NCBI GenBank assembly: GCA_950295325.1
Contig: OX485803.1
Location: 38,271,554 to 38,335,553, forward strand
Source: Polytrichum commune
Lineage: Eukaryota; Streptophyta; Polytrichopsida; Polytrichales; Polytrichaceae
Length of the DNA: 64,000 bases
Direction: 5' to 3'
Position 1 is the first letter of the stretch; the number at the start of each line of letters is the position of its first letter. Positions 4,879-46,400 of the stretch are shown piece by piece. The translations under genes were made by a program, and so were the position numbers. The notes beneath the pieces were generated by a model. It did no database searches and was not told the origin of the DNA. It was given only the letters and a program-made list of their open reading frames with translations.

Positions 4879-5217
4879 ATTAGACTTTTAAATGCATGAA
4901 GATGATGAGTCAACTCTTGATTCAAATTCGGAGGAAGTTAGGTATTATGTTTTTCCTAAATCTTGAATTTGCATCATTTCTTGTTGTTTGGTCTTGTATA
5001 GATTTTTGAATGAGCACGTTTAGTTTCTTTAAGTATTAAAATATAGTATTTTAGCCATGAATTTATGAGAATTAAAAGTGGCATGTGGTTCATTTTTCAT
5101 CCATTTTAGTTTTAGTTTTTATTTGTCTTACTAGTAGTCTCAAATAGGCCAACCTTGTATTGATTATCTTTTTGCTATAACAAATCTTTAACTAGTGATG
5201 CGCTACAACATTTGGCT

Positions 5218-19084: not shown

Positions 19085-19606
19085 GTGGAGCTGAACCATT
19101 TGGGAGCCTCGCGTGCGAGTTCTAGTTCAAGAAATTCTACGGGTACCATGGAGTTAGGTGACGATTTTAATGCTGCTTCTTCGTTTCTGATTCGGCAAGC
19201 AGTATCCTTGATCATATTCTATGTGTTTCGATTTTCTTGCTTGGTAGCTGCTTCTTCGGTTTTGATTCGGCAAGCAATATCCTTGATCATATTCTATGTG
19301 TTTCGATTTTCTTGTTTGGTAGCTGCTTCTTCGGTTTTTATTCGGCAAGCAGTATCCTTGATCATATTCTATGTGTTTCGATTTTCTTGCTTGGTAGCTG
19401 CTTCTTCATTTCTGATTCGGCAAGCAGTGTCCTTGATCATATTCTATGTGTTTCGATGTTCTTGCTTGGTAGCTAAGCTTCTCAGGTCCGCGACTCTTCA
19501 GATACTACCGTACTGTAGTTCGTCGCTTGCGAGGATCTCAAACCTCCCGCACACAACCAAGCTATGTATGCCTGGACAGACGATTGATCACGCATACTAT
19601 GGTTGA
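19085..19606 (+). CDS. repeat-built hydrophobic ORF, 173 codons
   Basis: Unrecognised. After a serine-rich start of about 30 residues, the frame consists of four 25-residue units, each with about 14 consecutive hydrophobic or aromatic residues. The tail is short and mixed. If made, it would be predicted to insert in membranes. The ORF is built almost entirely from the 75-bp tandem array, so it may simply be a repeat without stops. No neighbour suggests a role. Confidence 0.2.
   Translation: MELNHLGASRASSSSRNSTGTMELGDDFNAASSFLIRQAVSLIIFYVFRFSCLVAASSVLIRQAISLIIFYVFRFSCLVAASSVFIRQAVSLIIFYVFRFSCLVAASSFLIRQAVSLIIFYVFRCSCLVAKLLRSATLQILPYCSSSLARISNLPHTTKLCMPGQTIDHAYYG
19172..19471 (+). repeat. 75-bp tandem repeat, 4 units, in frame
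   Basis: Four units start at 19172, 19247, 19322 and 19397. Each contains GCAAGCAGTATCCTTGATCA and ends in TTTTCTTGCTTGGTA. Because 75 is a multiple of three, they stay in frame inside the ORF at 19085-19606 and encode four copies of a 25-residue unit with the core SLIIFYVFRFSCLV. Each unit also ends like a splice acceptor (pyrimidine run, then GGTAG). Whether it is translated is unknown. Confidence 0.85.
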
Positions 19607-20079
19607 TAATAGAACCATGTTCTTGGTATGCATATTTCTTACCTCCTAAGTTTTTTTCTTTGCATCATCTTTGATAATCTGCATCTTTTAATATGACTTT
19701 CTCATCGTCAGATTTTGCATTATTATTGAGCATTGATGAGACAGAAAGTGTGAAGCGCTAGGTATTGTCTGCTTCAGTCTCGCTGCTTTCGCATGGCATT
19801 TTTCGGTGGCCTTATTATTCTGCTCTCTTACACTGGTTTGGTTTTGAAATAGGTCAACACTTTCATTACACATATGGTCCTTCTTCTCATCAACTTCTCG
19901 GCAGTCTGCGAAGAGAAATTGGTTCAGGAAGGTGCACCTGTAGGTTCAGGAAGGACGATTGAAAGGGACTAAATCGTGTTCAGGAAGGACGACTTCTAGA
20001 AGGGACATAATCTTGTTTTTTTTAAAGGGTTGTTACAATTGAAGATAGGTTTTGGATAAGGAAGAAGATTAGAGTCAAT

Positions 20080-26472: not shown

Positions 26473-26767
26473 CTTCAGGTAAAATATCCATGAGCATAGA
26501 GCTCCAGATGATGACATGGGCCAAGCCAAGGACATCACGAAGGAAGCACCTCAACCCCGGCCGGGCCCGTACAACCTTCTTGTTAATGAGAGTATCAAAC
26601 TGTCCGCCGTAATCCATGTCTTGTGGACTACGGAAGGGACCCTTCGACGCACTATTGGAGATATGCATGGAATGACAAAGCACCCCATTGAGGTCAAATA
26701 TTATGAACGGTTTCCTCATGGGCCGGCTTGGTCTTTCAGCGGGGTTGCGACATATCTCCGACGGACC
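26473..26767 (-). pseudogene. single exon of an FCP1/NLI-interacting-factor phosphatase-like protein
   Basis: The minus-strand frame has KPFIIFDLNGVLC, followed about 45 residues later by VRARPGLRCFLRDVL and VIIWSS. This is the order of the N-terminal part of the HAD/FCP1 homology domain: the DxDx(T/V) box, then RPG...FL, then the hydrophobic strand ending in (W/T)SS. In the classic motif the second Asp is the general acid; here the box is DLNGV, with Asn in that place, so catalysis by the usual mechanism is doubtful. The exon is open from a CAG acceptor at 26768-26769 to a weak donor (GTTCAC) at 26472. The conserved WWDD-type C-terminal block is absent nearby. It may be a captured host exon, a remnant of a separate gene, or a distal exon of the palindrome-bearing minus-strand gene. 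Confidence 0.55.
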
Positions 26768-27058
26768 CTGTGATGGAAAATACTATCTAGGTGAATGGTA
26801 CTACCCATGAAAACCAATTGACAAGCATGCACAAACTCAACAAACAAATATAAGGCAAAAAGAATAGGAATACCCAGTTCAAAAAATTTGTATTAATGTG
26901 ATTGGTTTAATACATTTCGCGAATAATTTACATTGTCACAAAAGGTTTCCCCTAAAACTAATTGAATCTATGCTGGCAAAATTGCATCCACCCGCCGGGC
27001 GAAGTCGAGCATCGAACTCGACAATATGCACACGCCACGAAGTTGGCAGACAAGGAAG

Positions 27059-27190
27059 TTTCAGACGCGCGTCCGTAACGTGGGAGGCAAGCTCAAAGGT
27101 GGATTACCTCTTCAGCAGAGAGGCCCTCGCCAGCAGTGCCTCCCTCACCAGGCCCCATCGTGGGCACAGGTTCCGGATGCGCGTCCGCAA
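27059..27190. repeat. two degenerate copies of the 22-bp palindrome
   Basis: One copy lies around 27059-27080 (core GACGCGCGTCCGTAA), just past the end of the ParB-like frame. A more decayed one at 27171-27190 (TTCCGGATGCGCGTCCGCAA) lies inside exon 3 coding sequence. These are the leftmost members of the family described in the findings. Confidence 0.7.
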
Positions 27191-27354
27191 AATTGTGCAA
27201 GCTATCCTCCACCACCAAGGCGCCTCCAGCCACTTGCGACCCCTGGGTATCGACATGAGGTTGATCTTCATCTGTGGTGTCTTGGCTGCCCCGCATATGT
27301 TCATCTTCTTGGCTGCCCCGCATATCTTCATCTTCTTGGCTGCCAATGGTTGTG

Positions 27355-27764
27355 CATGGGGGGTGCACTTCATTGTCAAGTTGAACACCACGTGCGATAA
27401 AACAAAATCTACTTTTTACATAAAGAATCACCAAAATGGTTCAAAAGTTTATGATTTTTTTTTCATGAGTAGATATACATAGTATCTATTACATAGTAAA
27501 AATTGGTAACCAAATTTGATGATTTGTTTTTTTTATAAAACATACCGTTTCTAACTAGAATGACGCAACATTGAACTAAACAAATTACTACAAAAAATGA
27601 AGATGACTAAAAATTTCAAAAAAATATACAAAAGATATTATCAATGGTTATGTGTATGTAGAAAAAATATCATAATTTTAAAAATTATCTATGGCATGTA
27701 ATATAGGGTAGCAAACTTTTATCGCACGTGGTTATGAAATGTAAGGGGGTGTGATCCCCCCGTG
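27355..27764. mobile_element. 410-bp hAT-type MITE, copy 3, inside exon 3 of the ParB-like gene
   Basis: Same length and interior as the copy at 4469-4878. The ends are CATGGGGGG and CCCCCCGTG. An inner pair, CCACGTGCGATAAAA and its exact reverse complement, is perfect. The flanking 8-bp duplication TGGTTGTG (27347-27354 and 27765-27772) is perfect. Removing the element plus one copy of the duplication joins two parts of one reading frame exactly. Confidence 0.9.
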
Positions 27765-29038
27765 TGGTTGTGTTGTCTTCAATGGCGCCTTTCTCGTGAG
27801 CACCTGCCGTATAACGTGCAGGTCTCTCCTCCTCTCGTACGGTATGAGAGGAGGGCTCTGGGGTGGCGGCAACCTGGGGAGAAGGCGGGACATACAAGGC
27901 GGGGGCTGGATAGGTATGCTCTGGTATGTACACCGTATGGCTACTAGACGGAGGCCGCATGAGAGTGGGAGGCATCGACATGCCGGCTTCGGGAGCTGCA
28001 TACATTACTGGGGGTCTTGCTTGCAAGCTCTGCATGAGGCTCATAAATTGTTGGCTCTGGGTCAAGAATTGTTGATTTTGAGCCATGAGATCGGCGTGCC
28101 TTCGAGCAGACTCCAACCTAGCCTCCTCCATCTCAGTTTGGATGGCGGCCATCTTTTTGGCGTGCTCCTCGTTAGCTTCTCGAAGCTGTTGGTCAAGCTT
28201 TTCTTTCATTCTCTTCTCCAGTTTCTCGTCCAATTCGGCCACAGACATCGGCTCTTTCTTCACCTTGCCAAGTTTAGAAGGCAACGCAGAGAGGGCATTG
28301 TACATCCTAACCTCATCCTCGTCTTCATCAGAGAGTTCCAAGACGGCGCCTTCAGGGTACTCGTTGTAAGGAGTCTTCTTCCTCTGTCGACGACTCTCAC
28401 GGTATGAAGCGATATCCGGCCTCAAAATCAACTCCAGCACATCTCTACCCTCAATAGGTGGTAGCTCTGCCTGTTCAGAGCCCCCTCCAGATGAGGTTGT
28501 GCATCCGGCTTCTGTCGCAACGTCCACATCCTTCTCTGTCATAAGCCCAGCAGCACGCGATGGACCCGCAGTGGAAGGAAACCCAACTCGAGAAGTGGGA
28601 GTCCCAAAGGGAGAGGAAATAGGGATAGGATGGACCCTTATTGGAGTGAAGTCTTCATGCGCCCCCTCTGTATCCATGCGGTCTTCGCCCAAGACAAATT
28701 GATGTGGATGAACAGGATCACGAACAAGGCCGGGCACGTGATCTTGTCTGGCTGGCTGCTTTCTTGGGGAGACGGGCTCTTGGTCTCCGTCACTGTCCCA
28801 CTCCGTCGCAAGAGTTCCCTCTTCTCTTGAGGCAAAAGGCACCACAGGATGGGGGGTAAGGACATCGATGATGTCTTCGATATCCATTTTGGAGGCAAGA
28901 ACCCTATGAGTATTCGCCTCATCCATGTCGCGAGCCTCCACAAACGAATTTACCTGCAACCCAAGCATCTGCACCAAAACAAGGAAATTCTAGTCATTCC
29001 ATTGTTGCGAGCAAGTATGAGGACAAATATAAACATGA

Positions 29039-29120
29039 AGCAGTGTAATTTACGGACGCGCGGCCGTAAATTTGCACTGCATATGTGGTGGACAATGTTA
29101 CGGACGCGTGGCCGTAAATT
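29039..29120. repeat. two palindrome copies in intron 2 of the ParB-like gene
   Basis: Copies sit at 29050-29071 and about 29095-29118. Both have the core TTACGGACGCG followed by a variant right arm GGCCGTAAA. The first has mirrored flanks, GCAGTG on the left and CACTGC on the right. Both lie in the intron 28969-29164, whose donor is ATTGGTAAGTAC and acceptor GGTGCAGATG on the minus strand. Confidence 0.85.
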
Positions 29121-30562
29121 TTAATTCAGATGGAACATGGAAAGAGGTGTATACAAGTACTTACCAATGCCGCGTAAACAAATCTGGTGCCTCCGAAGAC
29201 GTTGTAAATTGTTTCACTCATCACAGTCACAGCCTTCAAGACTCCAATATAAAAATCCATTCGGAGCTTGTACGCCGGGTAGAGTGCATACATAGTCTCC
29301 GCGACAAGCTCCTTTGGGTGTGGTGGTGGCAACGAGTATACTTTCTTGAACACGTTCTGCGCTTTGATAGGCATCCGCCCACTTGGTGAAGACTTGTGTG
29401 TCAAGAAATAAAGTGCCAAAGCCCCGACCTGCTTCGCCCCTCTTGCCTCTTCAATAACACTGATCCCTTCCATCTTCGCGGAGATGTATGTGTTGTGGTA
29501 AAGATCATATTGGAGGTTCATCGTCGATGTGTAAAGCTGGACGACCGATGCGGACCTCTCTTGATCTACGATCCAGAGCCACACATTTGGCTCGAAGAGG
29601 GCAGACAACCGATAGCTCTTGAAGGCCTTGAAGAAGTTGTCAAAGAAAGCGGTTCCGCCAGCGTTTTGTCTCTAAGATCCGGGAAATGCACGGAAATCAA
29701 ATAGTGCGAACAGACAACCCCGGGGGTCATCTCTCACAGAGGCTCTTGAAGCATGTGTGTCCCATGTGCCAAACTTCAAGGCCGTTGTAACAGTGCAGAA
29801 TCTTGCGACCCCTCCGAATTTTGCTTTCTTTTTTCTGTCAAGGAAATGGACGTACAACGCCGTCTCTCTTTCGTCGATAGACCCTTTCTTCTCGTTCCTC
29901 CTAGATCTTTGGGCTAGGAAGGGAGATGCGCCTCTTATCAATGATCGCATAGAGACCCCATTGATGTGATACTCCTCCTTGAGCGTCCTCCAGTTTTCCT
30001 ACATTATCTCCCCATCTGTATTAGTGAGGTTGTGGGAGGGCAGCAGCTTGCTTATCTCCCTTATAGCCATGGTCTTCTTCTTCCTGTATTCGCACCATTC
30101 CTTAATGTGGTACGTAGAAGGCTTCATGTGCTTTGGTCGCTTCAGGAAGATTTTGGGGTAGGGCAGTGTCCTCCTCGGAGTCTCCAATAGGATGTGTTGT
30201 GCCGCTCTGTACAGTTCGGAATCGAGCAATCATTGGAGGGGACGAAAGAACTCTCTCAGGATATGTGGCACCTTAACCTTCGAGTCGCTCTTGTACGTGT
30301 TTTCTGCATCCAGATTGATAAGGTCTCCGTTGTTGTGGGCATCGAATAGGCGCAACCAAATTGCCCATGTCTCTTCTGTGGCGGTGATGAGCTTAAGTTC
30401 CCCCTTCATCTCCTGCACCGTCTTCATGCCGCTTGTCTTCAAGTCAATGCTGGAAAACTTTGTCAAGATGACATTGCTGAATGTCTGCAATGCCATGTAT
30501 TACAAGAAATCAGCAGAGTTTAAATTGAAAGAATTAAAGAATTGAAAGGAGATGGGAAGAAG

Positions 30563-30584
30563 TTTACGGACGCGCGTCCGTAAA
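30563..30584. repeat. perfect 22-bp palindrome in intron 1 of the ParB-like gene
   Basis: TTTACGGACGC followed immediately by its exact reverse complement GCGTCCGTAAA. It lies inside the 117-bp intron 30485-30601, close to the donor (GGCAGGTATGT on the minus strand). Confidence 0.95.
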
Positions 30585-31942
30585 ATTATACTGAGACATA
30601 CCTGCCATTTGGGATTCTTGATGACTGCATTCTCCCTCTCTTTTGGGGGACAATCGTGCTCCACCCACAAGGTCCTTCCAGCCACGATGTTGGCAGCCCA
30701 TGAAGCCTCGAACTACCTCACTTTATTCCCTTGGTTCATGAAGGCAGATATTGCGATGAGCTGGTTCGAGTCTTTGAAATGGACGACGAATGCCTTCCAG
30801 TATCGGATTGTCTCTTTCAAAGGGCTCTTCCACTCATCGTCCTCTAGGAGAGTTTTTGCAGCCATCACACTATGTTGGCCGTCAACTATGTAGAACTCTC
30901 CATCTTTGAAAATTGGCCAGTTTTGTGCTGTGACTTCAACCACATGATCCTTTGGTGTCACACATATGGTTTGCCTATCAAATTTGGGATTGTTCATAAT
31001 GTTATTCATTTGCCACCACACCCCGGTCTCTTCTTTGGCACGAGTATTTATACTCTCCGTGCCCTTGTGGCATTTGTAGACATCCACATCAAACGTGAAA
31101 TACCTTCCAAGTGGCCAGTAGCCCTTTGTCTTCTCGTCAAACTCTTGGAAAATCTTTGTGGAAAGTTCGGCGTCAGGGCGTTGTCCTTTCTTCAGGAGTG
31201 GTGCGGCAGTAAGAGTAGAGCTCACATCTGGACCCTCTGTTAGCCCTGACGACTCCATCTGTGAGTGGGAGCGTTTACTGGCCTGCTTGCCCCCTCTTGA
31301 TGCCCCACTCTGTGAGGGTCTGGAGGCTTCTGGCACGTGTTTAGGAACATGTTTAAGTCGTTCAGGAACTGGTTTTTTCTCCTTTCCTTTCTTAGCTTCC
31401 AGTAATGCCCCATTTACTCTTGTGACATTGTTCAAGAGACGTCCAAGCCGTTTACCCGTCGAGGGTGAATTGCATGCATAGTCTTGGAATTCATTATGTA
31501 GATTGAAGCAAGACGCATCTGGGCTGGCATTTTCACATTCATTTTTGTTGAACGGATGGTACAACTCGTGCAAAATGAATGTGATCCTATCATTTTTCTT
31601 TTCAAGGTCAATGACAACATAATCACCTTGGGCTACCGCACACTCTACTGTCCAGCTTTTAACCTTCATCCACTTCTCAGATTCATGTATATCTGCTTTT
31701 ATTTGATAGGCAAATCTAAGGACAAATATATCATTTTTGTCTTTTTCTACAATAACTGTCCAGTTATCTACAATGTCTTCGCGTGGCTTGTAATGGTCGA
31801 TGTGGCTTATGTCGTTGATGGCTTCTGGAAGCGGAGGATGGACAAGCTCTGCGAATATATCAATAGCGGGCCTTTTTGTAGATTCCATCTGCAAATGTAA
31901 AATATACAAGTCAATATTAAGGTCTAGGGATGCAGAGCGTAT

Positions 31943-32566
31943 CTTACAAACGCGCGGTTGTAAACCTTTGCGTACCTTTTCTTATAGAATGTGGTTATGT
32001 ATTATGTTATAGTACATGTCAAGTTTACGGACGCACGTCCGTAAACTTGAGATATCTTATAAAAAGAAATCTCATACATGATATATGTGCAGAGTTTACA
32101 GACCCGCGTCCGTAAACTCTGCACATATATCATCCAAAAGTCTTTATTTCTATATTTCATGAATATAATATGTTTTTTATTATTATATAGCCCTAATTTA
32201 CGGACGCGCGTCCGTAAATTTTTGGAAAATAAGTTTGTTTTTGTTGTGTAGAACTTGTATATTTTGTAGAACTTATTTTGAAAACCCATGACATGTATTA
32301 TACATGAGATTTTCATAGTTTTTTCTGCCTAGTTTACGAACGCGCGTCCGTAAACTCTGCACATGTATCATGTATTAGATTTAGTGTACTTAGATATTTC
32401 AAGTTTACGGACGTGCGTCCGTAAACTTCTCATTCATGTTTTTAAATAGTTCTTTTTAAATATATCTACAATTTACGGACGTGCGTCCGTAAACTGTTCA
32501 CACATAGTGCGATGCATATTCCCAGGGTTCCCTGAAGTTTACGGACGCGCGTCCGTAAACTTCAGG
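31943..32566. repeat. cluster of eight palindromes in the leader intron of the ParB-like gene
   Basis: Cores lie at 31943-31965 (decayed), 32023-32044, 32095-32116, 32197-32218, 32333-32354, 32403-32424, 32472-32493 and 32538-32559. Variation sits mainly in the central bases (GCGC, GCAC, GTGC). The third is the centre of a 56-bp palindrome (32078-32133, 26 of 28 pairs matching). The last is the centre of a perfect 36-bp one (32531-32566). All lie in the leader intron 31889-32814. Confidence 0.95.
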
Positions 32567-32814
32567 CCATTTTTTAATTACTCTGAATTTAATTACTTTG
32601 CACAATTGATGTGTTTCTGGATATTGTTCCGAAATTTTCGGAACAACTTTTTTGTTGCATCCATTCATGTGCAATGTTCATCTTAACTTGGAATGCAACA
32701 TGGATTTGCACTCCAAATTATAATGTATCAGGTGTTGCATTGCAATAGCAGATTCTACACTCCAAACTAAGAAGAATGTTCCATTTCAATTTGCAATGTA
32801 CTAGAAACACTTAC

Positions 32815-33760
32815 CTTTGTACAATGTTTGTTGCTCAACCACAGCTACAGCTAGGACAGACTGCAAATTAACAATAAAATTGAAGTTAGAAACCTCTGGT
32901 AATGCAATGTGCACATTCAAGAATCAACTAAACTGTGTGTTGCTCCTAAAATGCATCAAACCCACAAAAAAAACCCTACTACAAAGATTGCACTGGATTG
33001 AACATTGACATCAGATAGAAGTGAACAAAGCAAAACATATGATTTCTTAGAACTTGGACAAAGTGAATTGAAGTGAAGTGAAGACTTACAAACTGGAGGG
33101 AGGAGCACTCTGAAACAACTGAAAATACTCCAATCCTAAAACCCTTGCAACAACTGAAACTACTCCAATAATGTCCTAATGAGACTCCGAGCAAAAAACT
33201 ACTCAATTTCTGATGGTACTTGCAATTGTGAGTGCAACAAAACATTGCATGCTCACACAATACTCACAATCCTTCTCTTATGCATCAAAACATACACTCA
33301 AATCACCTAATAAGCACCTGGAACAACACATCTTGAAGTGAGGGAAGAAAAAAACACCTTCCTAGAGCTCCTAGAGCTCTTGTGGAACTAAGACACTAAG
33401 CAACAAATGAAGAGCAAGGAGGAGGAGAAAGAGGATAAACACCAATAAGGAGGAGAAGGAGGAGAAGGAGGAGCAACAATAGTAGCAAGGGAGAAGGAGG
33501 AGAAGGAGCAGCAAAAGTAGCAAGGGAGAAGGAGGAGAAGGAGGAGCAGCAAGGGCGACCAGCAAGGGCGAGGAACAAAGGCGAGGAGCAAAGGAGCGAT
33601 GGTGGGCGAGGAGGAAAGGAGCGAAAGGGAGTAAGCGAAAGGAGCGAAATGAGCAAAAAGGAGCGAAAGGAGCGAAGAGCAAGGGAGTGTATCGAAACCC
33701 TAAACCCTAAACGTCGCATCCACTCCCTACCTAGACGTCCCATCACCCCGCGCCCAAAGG
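32815..33760 (-). promoter_or_regulatory. leader region of the ParB-like gene
   Basis: On the minus strand, splice signals define a small non-coding leader exon (32860-32815) and an upstream leader intron (32861-33089, donor GTTTGTAAGTC and acceptor TTTGCAGTC). Upstream, 33,408-33,680 is a long run of TTCTCC/CTTCTCC-like pyrimidines on the minus strand, common in plant 5' leaders. A double telomere-type motif, AAACCCTAAACCCTAAA on the plus strand (33695-33711), resembles the telo-box of plant promoters. The start of transcription is inferred to be near 33.7 kb and is not directly visible. Confidence 0.4.
33408..33680 (+). repeat. purine-rich (GGAGAA/GGAGCGAA)n low-complexity tract
   Basis: Irregular runs of GGAGAAGGA and AAGGAGCGAA. 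Overlapping leucine/serine/proline-only ORFs on the minus strand come from this tract and are not genes. Confidence 0.85.
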
Positions 33761-33764
33761 CCAC

Positions 33765-36700
33765 ATGTAACCCTTACGTGGCATATGTCTATTGGTCTTT
33801 TTTGTGATTGCTAGAGTCCACCCTTGATAAATGTTACACTTCCACATGTTAACTCATAATTGTATTTGTTAACAAATTCGTACTCCTCTCATATTGCTAA
33901 CTAGAATGTAAACTTTGTTACATGTTAAGAATAATTTATTCCCCTCTTTGTTAATTTGCCACTTATAAATGTTAACCTACGAACTACATCCAATATTGTG
34001 AGATGACATCCATTACATTGAGTCACAACCTTTCAAAGTGGCAAAAGCCACCAAATTTGACTTTTGTGATCAAATTATTAATATGGGTTATATTGTGATT
34101 GATACACATATTTTATATTTGATAATTTTGCAAAACTCTCCCTCCATAATTGTAATGAATCAAATTTGTTAAGCATTCAAAAAGCTCCCTTTATAGTTGT
34201 TACAATGTTAACTCACAATAAATGTAAGGAAAATTATATTCCAGAGCATAACATTTATAGAGGATGGATTGTATGTGGTTTGAGTCCAAAAACGAATACC
34301 AAAAACAATTGTTGACCAAAAATAAAGGAACCTCAATGCTCAAATTATAATAACCATCTAGGCCCAATAATAAACATAATTCTGAAGTATGGGTTGAGGT
34401 TGAGTAACTCAAGTGTAAGATTTTCTTTGTGGATTTGTTGTAATATGAAGGTAAGCGGGCTTTAAATTACTAGTACACTAAATATTATAAGTAGTATTGC
34501 TTAATATTTAGAATTATGGAATGCTATATTAAATATACATTGTATATTATGTCATTGGCATCAATTAAATAACATCAATAATAAAAAAGATAAAGCATTT
34601 TGTAACTCCAAACAATGAGTGAAACTAAATTATACCATTTCTAGTGTAGCAGGTATGGAGGGGACTTTATATTTTGAGAATAGTAATAATATTGAATATA
34701 AAGTATGTCTTCTTGATTAAGTTAAGTATAATTTTTTTTCCACAAAGGTGGGATTCAAATGCAATTGGGACAATAATATACCCATTGGCCAAAAATTCAA
34801 TTAACCCTAAACCCCTACACCCTTATGAATCCCTCAATTATCGCAATAATTTGTGAAAGGGGATTTTCAACCTAAATTATACTATCAATAGCAACTTGGG
34901 GACTTTATTGAAGTTGGACACTTGGGATGCTTTGATGTGAATATCATTATTAATGATATTTAAATTAAGCATGTTTGAAACACAATTAACAAAACCAAAC
35001 ATCGAGATAATATGGGTTAAGATCAAATGCTTATAATATCTTAAACAACGTTAGGGGTTAATTCAATCCCTCTGCACATAGGTCTAAGCTTGTATTAGAA
35101 CAAAAGGAATGGGTAGGTGTTGAATTTACATCCCTCTTGTCCATTAAACAACCTTCAGGATTCATGCAATCCTTCCAAACCTAGGCATGAGCTTGTATTA
35201 TCGCCTATAAGTAGTAGCAAATTGTTGTTTATATTGGAGTTTTGTTTCCATGGCGACATGTATGGTTGTGTTAAGTATTCGATTATAGAATACCAATATA
35301 TGATGTTCAAAACCTATCTTCAAAAGTAAAGGTTTAAAGCAAATGGATAAATATGACTTAGAACATAACTTTGATGATCTTAAATGTTTTGAAGGCTTAA
35401 TTGTTTTCATATTGTATCCCATCAAAGAATAACAAGTCTCGGCTAAATCTTGTACTTGCCTCTAAGGGGTGGATTTTACCCAGGCAAACAAAGATTAAAA
35501 AAATGAAAGGTAAGGTTACGCAACCCAAGTACCTTTTTCCTTAGCCAAATTAAGACAACATGTCGGATTGCCATTCACAATTTGATAAATCTTTGTTCTA
35601 TGTCACCTACTTTTTCACCACTTACCATGTCTTCAAGAATAATTTGTGAACATAAACTTGCTTGACTTTTGAAATCTTTATGGTTTTGTTTTAGAGAATT
35701 TTAAGCCTTGACATGAGTTGGGAGTCGTTTATACGGTTTAGGGTTAAGGGTATCCCCCTTGTGTCACCGACTTAATATTGGTTGCCTTATTACTATTTGG
35801 ATACCCTACCCTCCCTTTCTGTCCATTATATTTTATGGGTTAATAGTATTACGTAGAACAACTATTGGTATAATTGTTTGCTTGCTTGTTTTGAATTACT
35901 TTCCACTTAAGCCTTGACATGTATCAGGAGTTGTTCAGTTAACCATGCTTGCATCTCTATGTCCACATGTTTGTTTAGGTTTGGGTGGTTATAGGGTTTA
36001 GGGTTGAGGGTAATAATGTTACTTGGAGCAACAATTGGTATTGTTTGAGTATTAATTAATGTAGGTAATGTACATGAGGTACTAAAATATGTTTTCCTCA
36101 CGTATAGTACATGAAGAAGGCTAGTATAATTAGTTTTTTTGAAGTAAATGTTGATGTACGGAAGGGGCCCCTAAGGTTTAGAGAGAAAACTGATAATATT
36201 GAATTTAATGCAACCCATGTTACCTAGGACAATAGATGTGCTACTATCATGGCCTTACAGTAATCAAAGTTTCTGTATCAGATATGAATACAATTATGTA
36301 TAGGTGTGTATAGGTGGGTAAATTAAAAATGTTGGATGGTTAGGTGGTGGCCAATGTAATTATAATATTAAATGCAAGATGAGAGGAGATAGCATGATAT
36401 TATGGTCAATACCATTACATTGTATGCAAAACAATAAAGTAGTTGCTAATTTAATTTTGATTACATGTATTTTTATACTCCATGTACTATTGTTGTTGTT
36501 GTGGTTGATTTTTCACACGATTGTATAATTTTTTGTCTACGTTTTTTAAAATGTACTCTTCATATTAGGTACTCCAATATTATTGCTCCAATAAACTACC
36601 TCTCAACAATGTTTATTGCTCATATAATATTAGCCAATCTACTTTGTTGTATACCACAAATACATAGATGCATTTTTCTTTGTCATTATGTGGACTCATG

Positions 36701-37121
36701 GTCTATGCATGTTGTCCACATGAATACACATTCCATTGTAAGGCTGGCACACGGAATGTAGTAATGCTAGGTTTGTATTTATAGGACATAGTTGGTGGCT
36801 AGTATCCTATGTTGGAAAACGGATCCAAGGGAAAGCGATCAGTACTTAAGGGGACACCCCCCCACCGTCGGGACTCTTTTTGCATCTCAGCTGTGGGTTG
36901 CGCTCCTTGGATCCTTGTAGTGTGCTCCTGCTACAAATTTTGTGCAGGTAAAGATCCTATTGCATGGACCTATTATACACTAAACCCCAAGCCCTGAACC
37001 CATTAGGGTAGAGAATTTGTATTTGGGTTGCACTCTCCGGATCCTTGTAGTGTGCTAGATTTTTATTTTGGACAGTTATCATTTCTGGTGCAATGTTCCG
37101 ATTTTAACGCCGCAAATCACG
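33765..37121. other. gene-free AT-rich intergenic region between the two divergent genes
   Basis: There is no supportable ORF on either strand and no copy of the 22-bp palindrome. It contains scattered TTTAGGGTT words (about 34.8, 35.7 and 36.0 kb). A short direct repeat occurs near 36,895 and 37,025: GGGTTGC then GGATCCTTGTAGTGTGCT. It may be a shared promoter region, or a later insertion separating two unrelated genes. Confidence 0.45.
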
Positions 37122-37924
37122 AAGGTTTACGGACGCGCGTCCGTAAACCTTAATCATATTGGTTCTTTGAACCTTTATTTGTTTGATCCAATACTCATGT
37201 ACGTTGAGGTTTACGGACGCGCGTTCGTAAACCTCCATACCTTTGGTGCCATATGTCATCTACACCACGTGTCGTGTCGAGTCTGTATGTCACCTACACC
37301 ACGTGTCGTGTCGAGTACCACAATGTGAATATATTGCCATGGAAGTTTACGGACGCGCGTCCGTAAAACGTGAACCCCTTGTCGCGTTGTACATCGTAGC
37401 TAGGCTAGTAAAGAGGTCCACAGAGGTTTACGGACGCGCGTCCGTAAACCTGGAAACCTTTGTTGCCATAATGTTGACCATGTGCCATGTAGGGGATTGC
37501 ACAGAGGCTGTACGGTCATGAAGGGTTGGGAGCTCGCATCCCTTAGCCTACATCACCCTATGTGTCATAGTATAATATTTGACATTGATAGAACATAGTA
37601 GGAAGTGCGTATGATAACCTCTTCAAATTTCATGAGTCGTCAGGCTTGCGTATACATGGCCGTGTTGCCAGGAGCTTTTGCTTCCCTGAACCTCCATGTC
37701 TAAGACTGCATTTTTACGGACGCGCGTTCGTATACCTATGTTGTAGTTTAGCATGATACTGCACTCTGTGCACGAGCCGATTTACGGATGCGCGTCCATA
37801 AACCAGTGGTGTTTTGGTTGTCATCACCTTTCCGCTGACTATGAACACATAAATGTATCCGTATGCGCGTGTGCTTGCGCTGCTAATGTTGTTACATGGA
37901 GGTATACGGACGCACGTTCGTATA
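37122..37924. repeat. cluster of seven palindromes upstream of the DUF7869-like gene
   Basis: Cores lie at 37126-37147, 37210-37231, 37346-37367, 37427-37448, 37713-37734, 37781-37802 and 37903-37924. The first, third and fourth keep the perfect core; the others have one to four changes. Flanks are mirrored in several: AAGG/CCTT at the first, GAGG/CCTC at the second, AGG/CCT at the fourth. The stretch ends about 145 bp before the ATG at 38069, so these probably lie in the 5' leader or its intron. Confidence 0.95.
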
Positions 37925-39179
37925 TCAATGTGTCTTTGTTTCCAAGCCATGATATCAACTATTGTTCACATTGTGTTTCATTAACAATAATAAGCGTTAG
38001 GGCTATCCATGACATTTATTGAATGGGATATTTTGACATACTCTTCATTGGGCTTTCTTGTAGTGGCCATGGATTCCAACGTCGGTGATAGTGGGGTTGA
38101 TTTTTTTTCGGAAGCGTCAAGCTATGATAGCGAGTTTGAAGTTGTCGTGGAACAAGATACTACAATTGGTGTCGCCAATGTAGAGGATGAATTCCTTCCA
38201 GCATGTGAGAGTTATTCGCGGGAGCAGTGGATTGATCTTGATGTCGTCCTAGTCAATGGATGTGGCGTCCCCGTGGCCGATGGTGTTTGTCGGAACTCGA
38301 ATCCTACGGATTGTATTGATGCAAATCCCCTTGGGGAAGAAGATGTGGAAGTGTGCATTTTGAATTCCTTACATCCGTTGGAAGTGCCTTCTGGTTGGAG
38401 ATTCTCTCTTCGTCGATGGCCGTTGCGCAGTGTTCTTCATAATGGTGTCAGCTTGTGGAATCATTCCCGCCGTTTTGATCAAATGCAATCGGCTTTGTTC
38501 TCCACAACGCGCCCTAGAATAGGTCGGCGTAAATATGATTCCTTTCGTTTGCCTCGTGAACCCACGCAACGTCGTCGAGATCAAACATTGGGAGATGCAT
38601 CTATTAGGTCTGTAGCAACAAAGGATTGTTGTGCAAAGAGATGTTGCCAACTATTTCCCCGTGACAAGATCAAATCTTTGAGACAAGAGATGTGGCTCGC
38701 GGACTTTCGTATGCGATCTGCAAAGAAACTTGAAGTCCATCGCAACATGCACCTTGATGTCGAAGGTCGTAAGGTTGTGACCTTGGAAAATGTAGAGATA
38801 TGTTGCAAGGCATGGTACATTATACATGCAGTTTCAAAGGCAGATTTTTATAGGTTCCGGAACTACTCGTTGCAAGGACGCCGTTCTCGGTTCCATGACA
38901 ACTCTGGCACAAAGAAGCCCAGGGAGGCAACACTCCAAGCGGCTGCAACACTATCAACCATCATTATGCCATTGGCAGTGTGGGAGCCCACTTTTTCGCC
39001 GGAATACGGAAATACGGATCCAAATTCCGTATTTTACCATGCTAACCTAGGGGTAATCAGGTTTATTTGAGTGTTTTAGCCGTATTAGGAATAATGGGTT
39101 TTTGAACTCCGCCTTACACGATAAAATGGTTAAAACTGATACTTTGGCCGGACCGGAATTTAAGTCAAATTCCGGATCC

Positions 39180-39323
39180 CGGGAGCAAACCAGGCCTTCA
39201 GCGGCTAGGGCCTTCAGCAACCAAGGAGACTATTTTGCCCCCGGAGGAGGAGCTTCCGCCATCAACGGATTACCAAGTCAAACCAAAAATGGAAAGGCGG
39301 CGAAAAAGCACCACACCACTTGA
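39180..39323 (+). pseudogene. C-terminal remnant of the gag-like ORF
   Basis: The frame ends GGGASAINGLPSQTKNGKAAKKHHTT and a stop. It is homologous to GGSSAVNGLGSHSKEGSAPKKHRSS at the end of the gag-like ORF of the 10.3-kb copy. The N-terminal and coiled-coil parts are deleted. Confidence 0.8.
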
Positions 39324-39777
39324 ATTAGACTTAGGCATGCAGCTGTAGGTAGATCAGAATTAGGACAGCAGGAATAGGTAGATCAGACTTAGGCGAGCAT
39401 GCAATTCAAATTTTGTGTCAGCAGATCAAGATCCGGGAATTCCGGATCTTCCGAGAAATCCGGAAAGTCCGAAGTTCCGGATTTCTCGCAGTTAGGGTTT
39501 TCCAGGGCGGCCGCCTGGGCCGCCACCCTTAGTTAGGGATCACAGCCTCTACTTAAGGCTGAATAAGGAGCTGGAGAAGTGTTCCTTCTCCATTGTTGTA
39601 TTGTGTTGCTCCCTACTCAATAAAACTCTAGATCTTCACCTATTCTCATTTGTTTTGTGCACGGACGGATTGGGAGGTTGTTGTACGCTAGAAGTAAGGA
39701 AGGAGTAGGAAGTCCGAATAGGACAAAGGAGAGGAAACCCGGATTAGATCCGGTTGCAAGCCTAGGGATCCTTTTTG

Positions 39778-40300
39778 AGTGTAGTGGGAAGGAAACCTCA
39801 CTATTCCGGATGTTTGGGTAACGTCCGGGTGGGATAGCCGCTGGTAGGACTGGGTAAAATCCGGAAGGGATCCGGATTTACGCCATCCGATCTTTTGAGA
39901 GGTCTCACCGCCCTCGGACGGAACAATCCGGAAAGTGGTACGGATCGCCCAGTTATCTCAGATTTAGTAGAGCCCCAGGCAGTTGTATACCGGATCCGTC
40001 CGCCGGAAGGGGAGACCCGGATCAGATCACTAGTCATTACCTTCCGGAACCTTTCCGGGTGTAGTGGGAGGGAAACCTCATTTTCCCGGCTGGTCGGGAA
40101 ACGTCTAGGTGGGATAGCCGCTGGGAGGATTGGGTGAAGTCCGGGAGGGATCCGGATTCATGCCATCCGAGCTTCTGAAGAGGTCCCACCGCCTTTAGAC
40201 GGACCAATCCGGAAAATGATACGGATCGCCTAGTTAGCCCGGATTCAGTAGAGCCAAAGGTAGTACTAGCCGGATGAGATCCGGAGAAGTACAGGAGTAA
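39778..40300 (+). repeat. 280-bp tandem duplication in the CCGGA-rich element
   Basis: Two units begin GTGTAGTGGGA(A/G)GGAAACCTCA at 39778 and 40058. Both continue through GGTGGGATAGCCGCTGG and a TACGGATCGCC(C/T)AGTTA segment. The same arrangement is present in the 10.3-kb copy. Confidence 0.85.
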
Positions 40301-41428
40301 GTTAGGATTCCGGATGAGGGGATACAGATCCGGAGGAAGGGGGAAGGAGACACCATCGATCCGGATATCCGAGTAGCGTAGAGACAAGATATTCTGGAAC
40401 GTGGTACGGATCACTCTTTCACTCTGTTGAGCTTACCCCCCTTCGTGGAATCCGGCACCCTCCTGTCGTTGTAGTCCTAGGAGGTAATCCGGACTCCCTG
40501 TGTGACCTGCCAATCCGGCTTGGTTGTGAGGGAAGATCCGGACCCCCCTCTAGAGAAGGACGTCTTCACCGGAAAATACCCATCATTAAGGGAGGATAGA
40601 ACGTAGTACAAAGATATTTTAGGGAGGAAACAATCCGTCTGGGACTTAGGAGTCAAATCCGGAAGAGGAAGTTCCGGATACAGGAGGACTTCAAAAAGGC
40701 CGGAAACTAGGATTTCCGGAAAATATAAAAGAAGAGGGGAAACAAACAGTTCCGGAAAGTCTCTACCTCCTACACTTCACAAAATCCCTGGACGATACTA
40801 AGGTCACCCGGAAATATCCGGATTTGGCACAAAAACCCGCCAATCCAAAACTTTTGGTGTTTGTGGGTTCCCACAGGCAGATGCGATGCCACACAAGACA
40901 CGGACTCTGCCGTCGGGGGAAAAGGTTGTTCAGATGGTTTTGCCTACAGGGACAAAATGGAAGAACATACTTATGGATGTTAATGAAGTTGGCGAAAAGG
41001 CTGGATGTGGGCCGATTTCGTTGTCAAAATTGAGTGTGATCAAGAATCAACAATTCGCATAATACATTACAAAGAGACCTGGGGATAAGTTTGCCAAGTG
41101 TTCTGCTTGTGAGAAATATAAAGGCCTTCGAGATGCACATCCCATTGGAACTGAGTCCTACAACCGACATCAACTGAAATACATTGAACATGTCAACAAC
41201 CAGGAGGCACACCGTCAAGACTACTACAAGAATCGCGCATTATCGATAATGAGGCCGAATGAGGTTTTGACAATCATTCATGACAAAATGGACCATGCAA
41301 AGACGGCGTGCCCTTGTTATGCGCGGAAAATAAAGGCTACAGATGGATATTTCAAGCTTCCAATATCTGTCACATGTTTGTTGATTTTCACATTTATTTT
41401 TTGCGCGCCCACATACTCATTGTTAAGA

Positions 41429-41450
41429 TTTATGGATGTACGTCCGTAAG
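41429..41450. repeat. decayed palindrome in the intron of the DUF7869-like gene
   Basis: TTTATGGATGT followed by ACGTCCGTAAG. It retains the arm layout of the family. It lies within the predicted intron 41376-41523, and its right arm creates a GTAAGT donor-like sequence. Confidence 0.75.
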
Positions 41451-43169
41451 TGTACATTTTTTTGCTTGCTTGGGGAAATTTTTGAATTTCATTCATATAT
41501 ACGATTTGTGTGGCTAAATGCAGGTATGATCGCACATGGTCATGTGGACGTGAAATATGCACATTATGGCTTGGATTTCTATCCTGGCGACGCCAATCAT
41601 ACCGTAGGGTCTTTTACAAAACTTCCACGAGATCTTGAGAGTCCGCCCACATCATCCTCTCGTGCTTTTTTTGTTGGATGTGGAACAACACCGATTTATG
41701 AGGCTGTGCTAGAGGGGAAGGAGGTTTGCCTATCTTCATTGGAAGAACCGCCTAAACAACCCGTTCTTGCTAAACCTTTGCCTCCAACTCTACACGTGCA
41801 ACTTGATAATTGTGCCAAGGACAACAAATGTCGATACGTATTTTGTTTTTGGTCATTGCTCGTAGCCAAGGGCATTTTCAAAGAAGTGTTTGTGTCTTTT
41901 TTGATGGTTGGCCACACGCACGATGACATTGACGCTTCATTCGGACGTTGGAGTATGAAGTTGCACGAGGAGGATTTTCCCACAATTCCTCTTCTCATGA
42001 AATTGTACATGGATTTGGATAATGTGCCAGTCATCCCGCATTTGATTGAAGAAGTGTCCGATTTCAAATCGTTTATCAAACCATTCATTCTTAAGGGAGG
42101 TGACCGCTTAGTGGGCCATACCAAGGCTCAACAATTCCGATTCTATATCCGTGATGATGGTCTGCCGGCCATGCAATTCAAAGTTTTGTGTACCTCCCCG
42201 AATTGGGGTCCAGAGGAAGGGATACTCGTATGGCGCCAAAACGAAGATGACAAATGTATGCTACCTGATGGGGAGCCGAAGCCTTGCAAACCCAACCCCA
42301 TGAGGAATGGACCAGAAATCATCAAAGGTATATCTGGATTCATCGAGTATTGGAAATATTTGTGCGAGGAAGACATCACAAGACGTGTTTGGGATACCCA
42401 CGAACCATTGATTGCGTATTGGGATCGCATCCGCTCAGCGTTGCTAGCACCCGAAGATAATAGACCATCATGTTTGACACAAGGTTTTTGGCCACTAAGC
42501 CGAGTGACAATCGTGGAATCTGAGGCCATGTTCTTCAACAATGGGGACGTCCGTGAAGAGTTCGCGGCGGACAACGATTATGTTGGCCCTGCTCGTAATC
42601 GCCTGGCTCCATCATTTCGTGTGGCTATTGATTGCTACGAAGGTTATATGGTCCTCGTACGTCCTGGAGATGAGGAACATCCTAAACCGATTTGGTTGGT
42701 GAAAGCATTGTCATCACCAAATTTTGTTCCAACTAGCCCAAATTTTCGTCAAATTGAGGTGGAATATTGCCGTCCAAGCACCAAATATCAAAATGTGCTC
42801 CGCACATATTTAGGGTGGGACACGAAAAAAGGTTTCAAATGGACAATGGACTCAGCATACGAACCAATATGGATAAACACGGATACCATATCTTGTGCTT
42901 GGAAACCACGCAAAGGTTCCAAAACTGAAACAATGACCATCCCCCAAAAACATATAGATTTTGCCAAAGACAACTTGGCACGTATTGCTGCTGCAGAAAA
43001 CAATGTCGATAATGGAAATGAAGCAGAAGATGAAGATGGTGAATGATATTGACGTAGGTTTGGACCAAAGATATTTGAATGTATATTGGTTTTTCATAAA
43101 ATATATGACATTGGGGTCGAATACTATATTAGACACATTTTATAGCAATTTTATAGATTACAATTATAT

Positions 43170-43442
43170 TGCATGGATGCATTGATTTACAGATGTGGAA
43201 TCCAAATGTTTTTTATGTTTGTATTTTTACGGATGTGGACCCTAAACTATATAATTATATTGCATGGATGCGTTGATTTACGGATGTGGAATCCAAATGT
43301 TTTTTATGTTTGTGTTATTACGGATGTGGACCCTAAACTATATAATTATATTGCATGGATGCATTGATTTACGGATGTGGAATCCAAATGTTTTTTATGT
43401 CTCTGTTTTTACGGATATGGACCCTAAACTATATAATTATAT
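43170..43442 (+). repeat. 91-bp tandem repeat, 3 units, just after the transposase gene
   Basis: Units start at 43170, 43261 and 43352. Each contains two TTAC(G/A)GATGTGGA words followed by ATCCAAA or CCCTAAA, which look like decayed arms of the 22-bp palindrome. The period is not a multiple of three, so the overlapping ORFs here are not coding. Confidence 0.9.
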
Positions 43443-46400
43443 TGCAGATGCTAATTTGCAATTTCGTGTCATTGGAATATTGTGTTGGCATAGTTTTGAT
43501 TATCAACTGAATAATTACTATATTTTAAAACATTATGTTGCCATTGTTCCCCATGTTCCCCATGTTCGCTACGTTCACAATATTCGCATCCGAAACTACG
43601 GGTCCAATTTATTTTGAGACTTTCCAAAGTCTCCAATTAACGAATATAGTGTTCAATTGTTTTTTTGAGCAATTGTCTTCTTAGTTGATTGCTCATTTAG
43701 CAATTGATTAGGGTTTAAGGTGCACCCAAGGAATCGACTACTCCTACAGTAGTCAATCAAGGAGTCGACTACTTATTAAGCACTTGACTCCATATGTGGA
43801 TCGACATTTGAATTTAGATAACATAAAATGGTGGAAAAAAACCAATAATTGTTTGTATTCAAGAAAGAAAATTGTTGTATCATAACAAATGTTGATAGAT
43901 ATACCTTATTTTTACAAACAAGTTCATGGCAATGATGCATGCCTACTAAGTACATGAAAACCCCCCTTAGGGAGCTTGAAAAACTAAACATTCTGTATAT
44001 TACCTTGATCTTGGATCTTCAATAGTCCACATGCTCATCCCATCTCACATGGTCCACATGCATTTGACATCTTGCAGTAGCCAAGTCAATGCGCCTCCCA
44101 TGTCAAATTTGCACAAAAGTTCTAGAGCCATGGTTCAAAACATATAACCCTCCCGGCATATATAATTGAGTCGTGACCTTGGTTGTAAAAGTTGTTGTGC
44201 AAGTTGGTTGACCGTAAAACTCTTAACCTCCTCGATGTAATATTTAAACAGGTTTTGATGTCTCTTACTCTAGACCCCAAACAACTCGGTTGCCACCCAC
44301 CATTTTATATATATATATATATATATAAATTTTGGCCTTTTTTGGTTTTTGCATGCCGTAATGATACAACATTCTCGCCCATATGCAATGCACACTCCAA
44401 TCTTCAAGCTTCCGTCCAACTCCCAATGGAGCATGATGTTGTCTATGGAAAAAACAACATGTTGCACATTTTCATTATGCAATTCTGACATAGGCCATAC
44501 CAAAGCCCATGATAATTTTATCCTCTACTTTCATAACCTTTCAACATGGGCCCATTGTTGCCATTTGGTTGGACTCTCAACATGACATTGTCATTTGGTT
44601 GATATGCTCCATCTCAAATATACATTTATCGTAAAGTTTTCCCGTTCCATCATAGTGTGTAGCCCACATTGGTCTCACTACTAATCAACCAAAACTTGAT
44701 GAAGCTAGGATGTGAGTTATTTAAAACAAATGCCTCAACATTGCTTTGGATTTGAGTTGCCCACATATCGGTGGTCTTTGGAGTTTTTTGGGCCCATATA
44801 ATATCTGAAGATAAACATTCGTCATCATTAATTTTCATCATGACAATCTCCCTTAGCCCCCCCCCCCCAATTTTAATCTTGTGACCCAAGAAAATTCACA
44901 TTAATTGGCATGGGCAGGTCACCCTCAATCACTTCTCCAGCTTATGTTTCTTCCAAGGAATTGTTTTGTTGGCCGTATGGGTAAACCTTTTGCCTTGGAT
45001 TTCCCACCACATAAACAACACCCGCATTTTCGTTGCTCAAAGGGTCACAACCTCACCTACTTTGGGAGGCGGGAAAACATTATCAACCAATTGCTTGAGG
45101 TTGGAAACTCCATTTGGGCTTAATTCTTCACCCAGGAGACAGAATATGCAAGATTTTGATCCTTAAAAAATTAAGGTCCATCCATTGTGTATCAAATGGC
45201 TTCCCCAATCAACTTCTTCATGTGGTTGGTCACTTGATATTCTGGATCATACTTGAGAAATTTCCATTTGATGATGTTTGTATCGTTATGCACAAACCAA
45301 TCTACAATGATGTCATGGACCTTTTTCTTGTTATATCTTTTGAAAATCTCATCTTTGGCTTCTTGCTTTTAGTTGATGACCTTGAGGCCTCGGAAGGTCC
45401 TCCTTGCCCGCATAAGTGGGCATGGACAATTCATTAGATGAGCGCGCTACCTTTTGAACATTGATTTAAGTTTGGTTCTGACCCCATAAAATTAGCCAAT
45501 CCCACATTTGAATGCCTTTGCATTTTACTAGGTTGTTTAAACACCTTATTGGCACCCTCTCGCTCGTCGTCTCCCATCATCCAACTCCGTTTTGCCATCA
45601 TGCTTAATAACATGGTAAACATGTGTCTCACAACTCGCGGACCAATCTCCTCAATCCTCCCTGTTGGATGTGGTTGCTCCAACGATCATGATGGAGGAGA
45701 CCTTTGGTTAACTACAAGGTGGCAATCGACCAAGGCAAACGACTTATACTTGGCAATTGACTAAAGGTGTTCGATTGTTGGGTTCCAGTCAACCAAGATA
45801 GTTGATTGTCGTTTAACAATCGATTTCTATATAGTATTCGTCTATTGGATTGCAATCGACCCATGTTAACTACCCTTTTAATTGTTACTTAGTAGTTAAC
45901 ATATGACACTCAACTGCTTCTTAGTGTAGCTGACTACTTATTAGTAATCGATCTAGTAACTAGCAATCCTCTTAGTGTAAGTTGACTGTAGGTTTGTAGT
46001 CGTCATTGCAATCGATGTAGTTTGTCAATTGTTCGGTACAATCGATGTAGTTTTGTTGATTGTTCGGTGTAATCGATAGGATAGTGGACTATCATGTCAA
46101 CTTCTAGAAGCAATCAACATGGAAGTTGATTACTAATTGAAGTTGACATGGTAATCAACTACAAAGGGCGATCAACAACCTCCAGAAGAAAAATTCCCAA
46201 TGGCTTGCCGCCACAATAAGCTTCGTATGGGGTTGAAAATGATTATTAATACAAAATGATAATTTATAGTGAGTGCAAGTGAATGCACTGGGACTAGAAA
46301 ACTTCTATTTTGTCACACTCGGCATTTCCACCGATTTTATTTGACTTTAGGCATTCATTGCAAATGGAGAGAGGTAGTAGGTTATATTGGTATGGGCATG

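Follow-up and report, generated by a model that had tools for sequence, protein, structure and literature searches.

Family-specific palindromes in the introns and leaders of Polytrichum commune DUF7869 transposons: candidate binding sites for an element-encoded protein

A truncated W-family transposon and its palindromes

The stretch of Polytrichum commune DNA analysed here (64 kb; hereafter the window) contains a truncated copy of a DUF7869 transposon of the family that we call W, located at 26487-43653 on the plus strand by blastn against two complete copies, E1 and E2. W elements are DNA transposons of ~17 kb with 28-bp inverted repeats (AACACTATATTCG...) and 4-bp target duplications, and they carry a DUF7869 gene together with a divergently oriented gene, gene A, that contains a ParB-like motif. 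The window copy is without its leftmost ~1.8 kb, left inverted repeat included, and a single inverted repeat was found in the window: the right terminal one (AACACTATATTCGTTAATTGGAGACTTT, reverse strand) at 43626-43653 on the minus strand, with 0 mismatches to the right end of E1. E1, E2 and an element of a second family, F, share the same ends, and 4-bp duplications (CCAT, AGTG and ATGT) flank all 3 of 3 copies for which both ends were read. A tnp2-like ORF at 21383-22063 falls outside the W element.

The DUF7869 gene (38069-43046, plus strand) encodes a putative transposase in two coding exons, the long one of which matches only PF25273 (DUF7869; E 7.1e-39) in Pfam. Its exon 1 is broken by an insertion in the window copy; the gene is open in E1 and E2. 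A literature search on DUF7869 found no paper. Gene A (27685-31888, minus strand) has three coding exons in E1; the window copy contains in-frame stops, with inserted sequence at the 3' end. Exon 1 contains the ParB-like motif IVDGQH, and exon 2 is possibly methyltransferase-like, judging by motif resemblance in W and F. ParB similarity to phrog_1033 is weak for W gene A (E 0.0079, E1 copy; E 0.19 for family G); Pfam gave no ParB match for gene A. For the methyltransferase-like domain of W there was no match in NCBIfam (window pieces), Pfam or PDB, and an hhalign comparison with family G gave 0.3%. In family G itself, exons joined at a guessed splice match the DNA N6/N4 methyltransferase family PF01555 (1.2e-7; 32.3 bits against a cut-off of 26.7) and, in the PDB, DpnA (5hfj, 2.1e-5), while the first ORF alone has no methyltransferase match. 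The phosphatase was without a PDB match, and AlphaFold models from single window sequences were unusable (mean pLDDT 33 for gene A exon 1 and 32 for DUF7869 exon 2).

The first-pass annotation had described about 21 dispersed copies of a 22-bp palindrome, mostly in introns and leaders of two genes. Searching the window for the 22-mer at ≤3 mismatches recovers 16 copies, against zero in 100 shuffles, and scoring half-sites without the 2-bp spacer (≤4 mismatches) over the whole 64 kb yields 21 sites in the same groups, 19 of which lie, by gene model, in introns or leaders of gene A and the DUF7869 gene. As annotated, none falls in the 33.1-37.1 kb spacer. In each palindrome a half-site of ~10 bp is followed, after 2 bp of spacer, by its inverted copy. 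Two decayed copies (27058 and 27170; 27058-27191, minus strand) lie at the 3' end of gene A, with counterparts at 11392 and 11504 in E2 and, in E1, at 10962, just past the gene A stop, and 11074, within coding sequence. Also on the minus strand, intron 2 of gene A (28969-29164) holds sites 29049 and 29097, intron 1 (30485-30601) an exact palindrome at 30563-30584, and a 5' UTR intron assigned by sequence (31889-32814) eight more, at 31943, 32024, 32095, 32197, 32333, 32404, 32472 and 32538. The splice signals of introns 1 and 2 and the leader acceptor at 31889, all proposed earlier, are homologous in E1 and family F; between the window copy and E1, blastn similarity in the leader intron is found only at the palindromes. 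Seven palindromes occupy the DUF7869 leader (37126-37924, plus strand; 37126, 37210, 37346, 37427, 37713, 37781 and 37903), and a decayed one lies in the DUF7869 intron (41429-41450, plus strand), in the same place as in E1 (23657) and E2 (24060). The earlier placement of the seven in the leader stands, except that the cluster may be inside a 5' UTR intron, as a putative splice (TTTCTTGTAG/TGGCCATGG) before the start codon suggests. Finally, a 91-bp tandem repeat (43162-43446, plus strand, ~3 units) contains two half-site-like words per unit, six in all (TTTACGGATGTGG and variants).

Genome-wide, there are 5,214 copies of the 22-mer, compared with 2 for the reversed control. Rather than being spread evenly, the genome matches listed fall into clusters, and the motif recurs in the other W-family copies read (E1, E2 and the loci L017, L019, L020 and L036), so that neither of the outcomes named as refuting by the first-pass annotation was observed. 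W-family elements carry about 20 to 30 copies each, mostly in introns and leaders of their own genes. The palindrome was thus recovered as first described, but its pairing exceeds 22 bp: among 61 non-redundant W sites, outward positions +1 and +2 are paired in 40 and 41, where re-pairing of flanks leads us to expect 26.7 and 23.2, and 0 of 2,000 re-pairings reach the observed value. The excess is weak at +3 (p 0.017), +4 (0.049) and +7 (0.019) and absent at the remaining positions up to +12. At window site 32095 pairing runs 17 bp further outward.

Different words in comparable places

Other DUF7869 families have words of their own upstream of the DUF7869 gene: TTTACGAACG in F, and elsewhere GGTTTGGGTCG, CCCACGGGTG, CCCACGGGCG and an imperfect GGTGnGGCA. 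Note that families were sampled through the DUF7869 gene. An array is present, in the stretch read, at 18 of the 21 leader loci fetched; L013, L018 and L027 have no array in the stretch read and little or no leader similarity there, and the L018 array was located just upstream, in L036. F and W have sites in five shared places (both gene A introns, the gene A leader, the gene A 3' end and the DUF7869 leader), and the sites themselves are one base per half-site apart. Between E1 and F, identity is 85% in DUF7869 exon 2 and 53% in gene A exon 2.

The difference between W and F sites is symmetric. At half-site position 7 and its mate, all 32 sites of the F element have A/T, whereas G/C is found in 16 of 21, 20 of 23 and 18 of 22 sites of W copies. 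Exact palindromes number 1,147 for W/W, 2,909 for F/F and 3,138 for G in the genome (reversed controls 0), and mixed W/F palindromes only 43 (26+17) against ~1,670 expected from random pairing of halves by our own arithmetic, keeping in mind that copies share descent and the events are therefore not independent. Some observations count against the reading that we prefer below: one E1 site (15461) is of exact F type, and in family K the halves match in only 2 of 31 full-form sites. Spacing within arrays is 95 and 135 bp in E1, 47 bp in H and mostly 58-60 bp in K. The accessory gene lies on the strand opposite to DUF7869 in W, F and K; the accessory ORFs of family G are on the same strand, another point against that reading. 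No left end turned up for G and no element ends for H or K, nor did the stretches read reveal a gene A for family H.

A proposed DNA-bound dimer and its rivals

Faced with these sites, their positions, their linkage to the element and their symmetric switching between families, we lean towards reading the palindromes as sites bound by a symmetric, family-specific dimer that the element itself encodes. This dimer would bind two inverted half-sites of ~10 bp separated by the 2-bp spacer. Introns and leaders, free of coding constraint, would house the arrays, which would label the element as 'self' and so provide private self-recognition. Each family would have its own half-site, protein specificity and sites would evolve together, and arrays would be renewed through tandem duplication; that the sites of an element switch together, with halves matched, is what such coevolution and renewal would lead one to expect. 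The likeliest binder would be the gene A product, and the likeliest use an anti-silencing, specific by sequence, that acts on copies of the same family, much as VANC acts on VANDAL transposons in Arabidopsis; autoregulation comes second. Since families were found via DUF7869, which itself diverges between families, the data do not single out the binder.

Site conservation bears on the nature of the ligand. Across 170 half-sites of F, deviations per position from outside to inside are 40, 35, 17, 9, 6, 5, 2, 3, 1 and 3, so that constraint climbs towards the centre and the inner bases vary least; the F spacer is free (12 of 16 dinucleotides across 92 leader sites). W departs from both patterns, which counts against the dimer: its deviations follow no trend from outside to inside, and its spacer is CG in 24 of 30 leader sites. 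Hairpins formed by intron and leader RNA, which would control splicing or small RNAs, would fit this lack of a trend in W, the transcribed location of the sites by gene model, and outward pairing above chance at the next positions (and 17 bp further at site 32095). However, G-U pairs do not outnumber A-C pairs in transcript sense (23 versus 25 of 1,090 cells; 19 versus 22 of 910 after removing the near-duplicate copy E2), and the would-be loop bases are among the most conserved in F. We reject hairpins as the main explanation on these counts and on the constraint gradient (clear in F, absent in W), and regard them as very improbable. We give marginally less credence still to a tiny element that moves, or spreads by gene conversion, among introns: copies are many and irregularly spaced, and the gene A leader intron of the window resembles that of E1 at the sites alone, but the motif follows the family (32 of 32 F-element sites are F type) and the regular spacing within arrays (E1, H, K) points to tandem duplication. 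Of the three readings offered by the first-pass annotation, symmetric switching, the free spacer and inner conservation in F, and the G-U counts favour protein-bound sites, and specifically a DNA-bound dimer, over both hairpin and self-spreading element.

If a protein is bound, it could be another one. The sites might serve the candidate DUF7869 transposase, in assembly of a transposition complex or in autoregulation, and an array does lie upstream of DUF7869 in each family sampled (found, as they were, through DUF7869), with half-site-like words close to the right end. Yet most palindromes are internal (the E1 left end is at 8605, its first site, a poor one, at 9318 and the next at 10962), many are within another gene's introns, and DUF7869 exon 2 is still 85% identical across the motif switch, so that we consider this reading unlikely, if the most serious of the rivals. 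Operators for a host transcription factor or insulator, used as intronic enhancers, would make sense of clusters adjoining the starts of two divergent genes. Different motifs per family within one host genome, with the W, F and G words each present in thousands of exact copies, argue against them: one host factor would not demand different family motifs, and we find this improbable. Within the element-encoded dimer that we favour, a more specific version, by analogy with bacterial parS and to our minds equally doubtful, has the ParB-like protein loading at family palindromes as a clamp, spreading over the 17-kb element and blocking the host silencing machinery. Were it true, there would be about six private partition-like codes in one genome, one protein-site pair per family.

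Related systems and implications

Bacterial ParB acts with palindromic parS sites present in several copies and has a GERR-type CTP box. Our elements likewise combine a ParB-like motif with multiple palindromic sites, but have DGQH or DGNHR in place of the GERR-type box, and the phrog_1033 match is weak. CACTA (En/Spm) transposons have subterminal repeats bound by TnpA, a 3-bp target duplication and a Transposase_21 (tnp2) protein; the elements described here also contain CACTA at their ends and many short repeats, but differ in their 4-bp duplication (3 of 3 copies), in having DUF7869 rather than tnp2, and in sites that are mostly internal rather than subterminal.

VANDAL elements are Mutator-like, with VANA as transposase. 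Here, by contrast, we find a DUF7869 gene, a 4-bp target duplication, a ParB-like gene A and no Mutator-like Pfam match for the long DUF7869 exon. Passages of PMC5735166 nevertheless describe a close parallel: in Arabidopsis VANDAL21, VANC binds a motif in non-coding parts, and motif-bearing tandem repeats lie in the VANC21 and VANB21 introns and upstream of VANA21. VANDAL21/VANC21 and VANDAL6/VANC6 thus share with our elements a dense short non-coding motif, placed within introns of accessory genes as well as ahead of the transposase gene, motifs that differ between related families (YAGTATTAY and AGTTGTCC/AGTTGTAC in those passages), and evolution by tandem repeats (array spacings of 47, 58-60, 95 and 135 bp here). 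Ours are palindromes with a spacer, whereas the VANC21 array is described there as non-palindromic and in one orientation. The earlier statement that no described family has this form accordingly holds for the palindrome but not for its placement, and among the papers listed for palindromes and anti-silencing, judged by title and opening of the abstract, there was no account of such sites. Passages of PMC12477816 describe algal transposon accessory proteins combining ParB-like and DNA methyltransferase parts, suggested to bind and modify their own element, and give no target site for them. That transposon, too, is a large DNA transposon whose accessory gene and transposase gene lie on opposite strands (as in W, F and K), but its transposase is Sola1 rather than DUF7869.

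The palindromes therefore supply candidate targets for transposon proteins of the ParB-methyltransferase type, in several family-specific versions within one genome, and W and F sites, which differ by a single base in each half-site, are ready for a specificity-swap comparison. If the system is VANC-like, sequence-specific anti-silencing would have arisen at least twice, with different proteins in different transposons, and the arms race that pits transposons against silencing would become testable beyond Arabidopsis.

Placement of the palindromes within the elements

The first-pass annotation described about 21 copies of a palindrome between 27059 and 41450, and the same positions are recovered when half-sites of the W palindrome (W being the half-site word of the window's transposon family) are scored without the 2-bp spacer: there are 21 sites at up to four mismatches, and gene models place 19 of them in introns or leaders. 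The 22-mer TTTACGGACGCGCGTCCGTAAA occurs 16 times in the window at up to three mismatches and not once in 100 shuffles. A genome-wide search at three mismatches (408 Mb, 64 contigs) returned 5,214 matches to the W 22-mer against 2 for the reversed pattern; among the first matches listed, positions are clustered. The same genome gives 19 matches to the RuBisCO small subunit, 18 of them nearly complete in length, which suggests a member of the green lineage.

The window's W copy spans 26487-43653, with some 1.8 kb missing on the left. The contig has two further copies, E1 and E2, whose common 17.35-kb unit (97.6% identity, differing flanks) is bounded by terminal inverted repeats AACACTATATTCG...TTGGAGACTTT. 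All three copies having both ends read carry 4-bp target duplications: CCAT and AGTG for E1/E2, and ATGT for a copy of family F. The plus-strand gene, a putative transposase, has the Pfam domain DUF7869 (E 7.1e-39); its first exon in the window holds a solo-LTR-like insertion (38979-40875, ends TGTGGGA...TCCCACA, 5-bp duplication GGCAG) that E1 lacks. Gene A, on the minus strand, encodes 1,346 aa with the three E1 exons joined. It contains a ParB-like motif, IVDGQHSVMAAK, in a region whose best phage-family match is a weak one to 'ParB-like partition protein' phrog_1033 (E 0.0079); Pfam gives no ParB match for gene A. Exon 2 carries FDFRAIPG and VYNVFGGTKFMYAAL, which we take to resemble a methyltransferase with an altered catalytic motif; no domain or structure library searched supports a methyltransferase-like domain there. 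A third gene in E1 (L002, L005) is a NIF-type phosphatase (PF03031, E 4.4e-13); E2 and F (L023:1358-2140) carry ORFs resembling it.

At up to four half-site mismatches there are 21 sites in the window copy, 23 in E1, 22 in E2 and 32 in the F element. By gene model, 20 of the 23 E1 sites lie in introns or leaders: for gene A, three in intron 2, one in intron 1 and six ahead of the start codon; for the DUF7869 gene, nine ahead of the start codon and one in an intron. Of the other three, one is within the coding sequence of gene A (11074), one shortly after the gene's stop (10962), and one, which matches poorly, towards the left of the element (9318). Places in F are comparable, with two sites in each of two gene A introns, nine in the gene A leader, three at its 3' end (one in coding sequence), 12 in the DUF7869 leader and, upstream of the phosphatase ORF, four that have decayed. 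No site falls between the two main clusters in E1, E2 or F, nor in the window, where this spacer had already been noted as site-free. When the gene A leader intron of the window is compared with that of E1, blastn similarity is confined to the palindromes; the sequence around them has therefore turned over while the sites remain.

Some local features of the window stand apart. At the site 32095-32116, complementarity continues for another 17 bp into both flanks, perhaps through template switching at the palindrome. About 460 bp at the gene A 3' end (27309-27771) are unmatched in E1 and E2 and probably represent a separate small repeat, since L027:141-553 is a 98% identical copy of most of this stretch. 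To the left of the element, the open frames at 19046-22700, one of them Tnp2-like (21383-22063; PF02992, E 6.5e-5, below cut-off), are a different transposon without the palindrome.

Palindrome words of other DUF7869 families

Leaders 5' of DUF7869 from other families were fetched at 21 loci, a sample drawn via DUF7869 rather than an enumeration. A palindrome array is present in the stretch examined at 18 of the 21, where 0.1 to 1.1 palindromes are expected per shuffled locus (14 of the leader loci). The W type is found at L017, L019, L020 and L036 (just upstream of L018), and the palindromes also recur in the W copies E1 and E2. The F type, TTTACGAACG-NN-CGTTCGTAAA, occurs at L007-L012, L014, L015 and L030; the G type, GGTTTGGGTCG-NN-CGACCCAAACC, at L016 and L026; the H type, CCCACGGGTG-NN-CACCCGTGGG, at L025; the H' type, CCCACGGGCG-NN-CGCCCGTGGG, at L031; and the K type, GGTGnGGCA-NN-TGCCnCACC, at L028 and L029, mostly in imperfect form (matching halves in 2 of 31 full-form sites). 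L013, L018 and L027 have no array in the stretch examined, and little or no leader similarity there. At L035:526-549 an H-type palindrome sits between two DUF7869 ORFs (the first ending at 461, the next starting at 556) and is probably intronic, as sites of the window family are. Next to other elements (L021:29-599 and 4787-5357; L022; L001; L029:1292-1387) there are further palindromes, GGGCGCTGTCCCGGGACAGCGCCC and TGGACTTCCATGGATGGAAGTCCA, arranged in mirrored order; they look like parts of another repeat family.

The W and F words differ by one base per half. Exact genome counts are 1,147 for W/W, 2,909 for F/F and 3,138 for G, with none for reversed controls. Mixed W/F sites number 43, against the roughly 1,670 that random pairing of half-sites would give by arithmetic, the counts being non-independent events owing to the common descent of copies. 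The W motif stays the same even where gene A is only about 75-80% identical to that of E1, in a series made up of the window type and a 75% group (protein copy counts being lower bounds) tied to leaders L017 and L020 via DUF7869 groups; the link of L020 rests on its DUF7869 group.

DNA-bound dimer or RNA hairpin

The first-pass annotation offered protein-bound sites and RNA hairpins side by side. Hairpins would predict an excess of G-U pairs and freer bases beside the centre. In transcript sense, however, G-U pairs are not commoner than A-C (23 vs 25 in 1,090 cells; 19 vs 22 in 910 cells with E2 left out), and in F the deviations, read from outside to inside over 170 half-sites, are fewest near the centre (40, 35, 17, 9, 6, 5, 2, 3, 1, 3). 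The F spacer is free, with 12 of 16 dinucleotides seen in 92 leader sites. In W neither feature is clear: deviations (13, 17, 1, 11, 11, 5, 13, 6, 13, 5 over 146 half-sites) lack an evident inward drop, and 24 of 30 leader sites have CG as the spacer. Because inner bases are conserved and the spacer free in F, and G-U pairs are not enriched, we favour the first of the two readings, in which the sites are predicted targets of a DNA-bound dimer.

A candidate binder and its possible role

The best candidate for the putative binder is gene A, since W, F, G and K elements have likely versions of it and its divergence outpaces that of DUF7869 (E1 and F are 53% identical in gene A, 85% in DUF7869). 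Family G has, in the same orientation as DUF7869, two ORFs with a YDGNHR motif and a weak phrog_1033 match (E 0.19). When a G ORF is extended by the following exon across a guessed splice, it exceeds the Pfam cut-off for N6_N4_Mtase and resembles the methyltransferase DpnA (E 2.1e-5); without that exon it gives no hit. The opposite strand of family K encodes an apparent relative of the ParB-like region, 26% identical to E1 when pieces joined by hand are aligned. No gene A was found for H in the stretches examined. Accessory genes of G, H and K are assigned by nearness, because the G left end and both H and K ends were not found.

In Arabidopsis VANDAL21, VANC21 is described as binding a 9-base motif in non-coding parts, with motif-bearing tandem repeats in the VANC21 and VANB21 introns and upstream of VANA21 (PMC5735166). 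The layout of the palindrome-bearing elements is similar, but their transposase differs, being DUF7869; judged by layout, the system would thus work like VANDAL/VANC without belonging to it. The Ectocarpus element Sola1-1_Ec32 is reported to encode, opposite in strand to its transposase, a 1,104-aa protein with ParB-like and methyltransferase parts; counterparts are reported from green and red algae, and it is suggested that proteins of this kind bind and modify their own element (PMC12477816, citing Iyer 2011 and Petroll 2025). In titles and the opening parts of abstracts we found no description of their target sites. The earlier statement that no described family of this form was known holds for the palindrome as far as those titles and abstract openings show, but VANDAL21 has non-palindromic motifs in similar places. 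While ParB-like plus methyltransferase transposon proteins are known, the family-specific palindromes would be new as their candidate target sites. By analogy with VANDAL/VANC we infer a possible anti-silencing role: the gene A product would bind its own family's palindromes, each family's sites acting as the private address of an element-made protein, and binding may counter silencing of the family's own copies.
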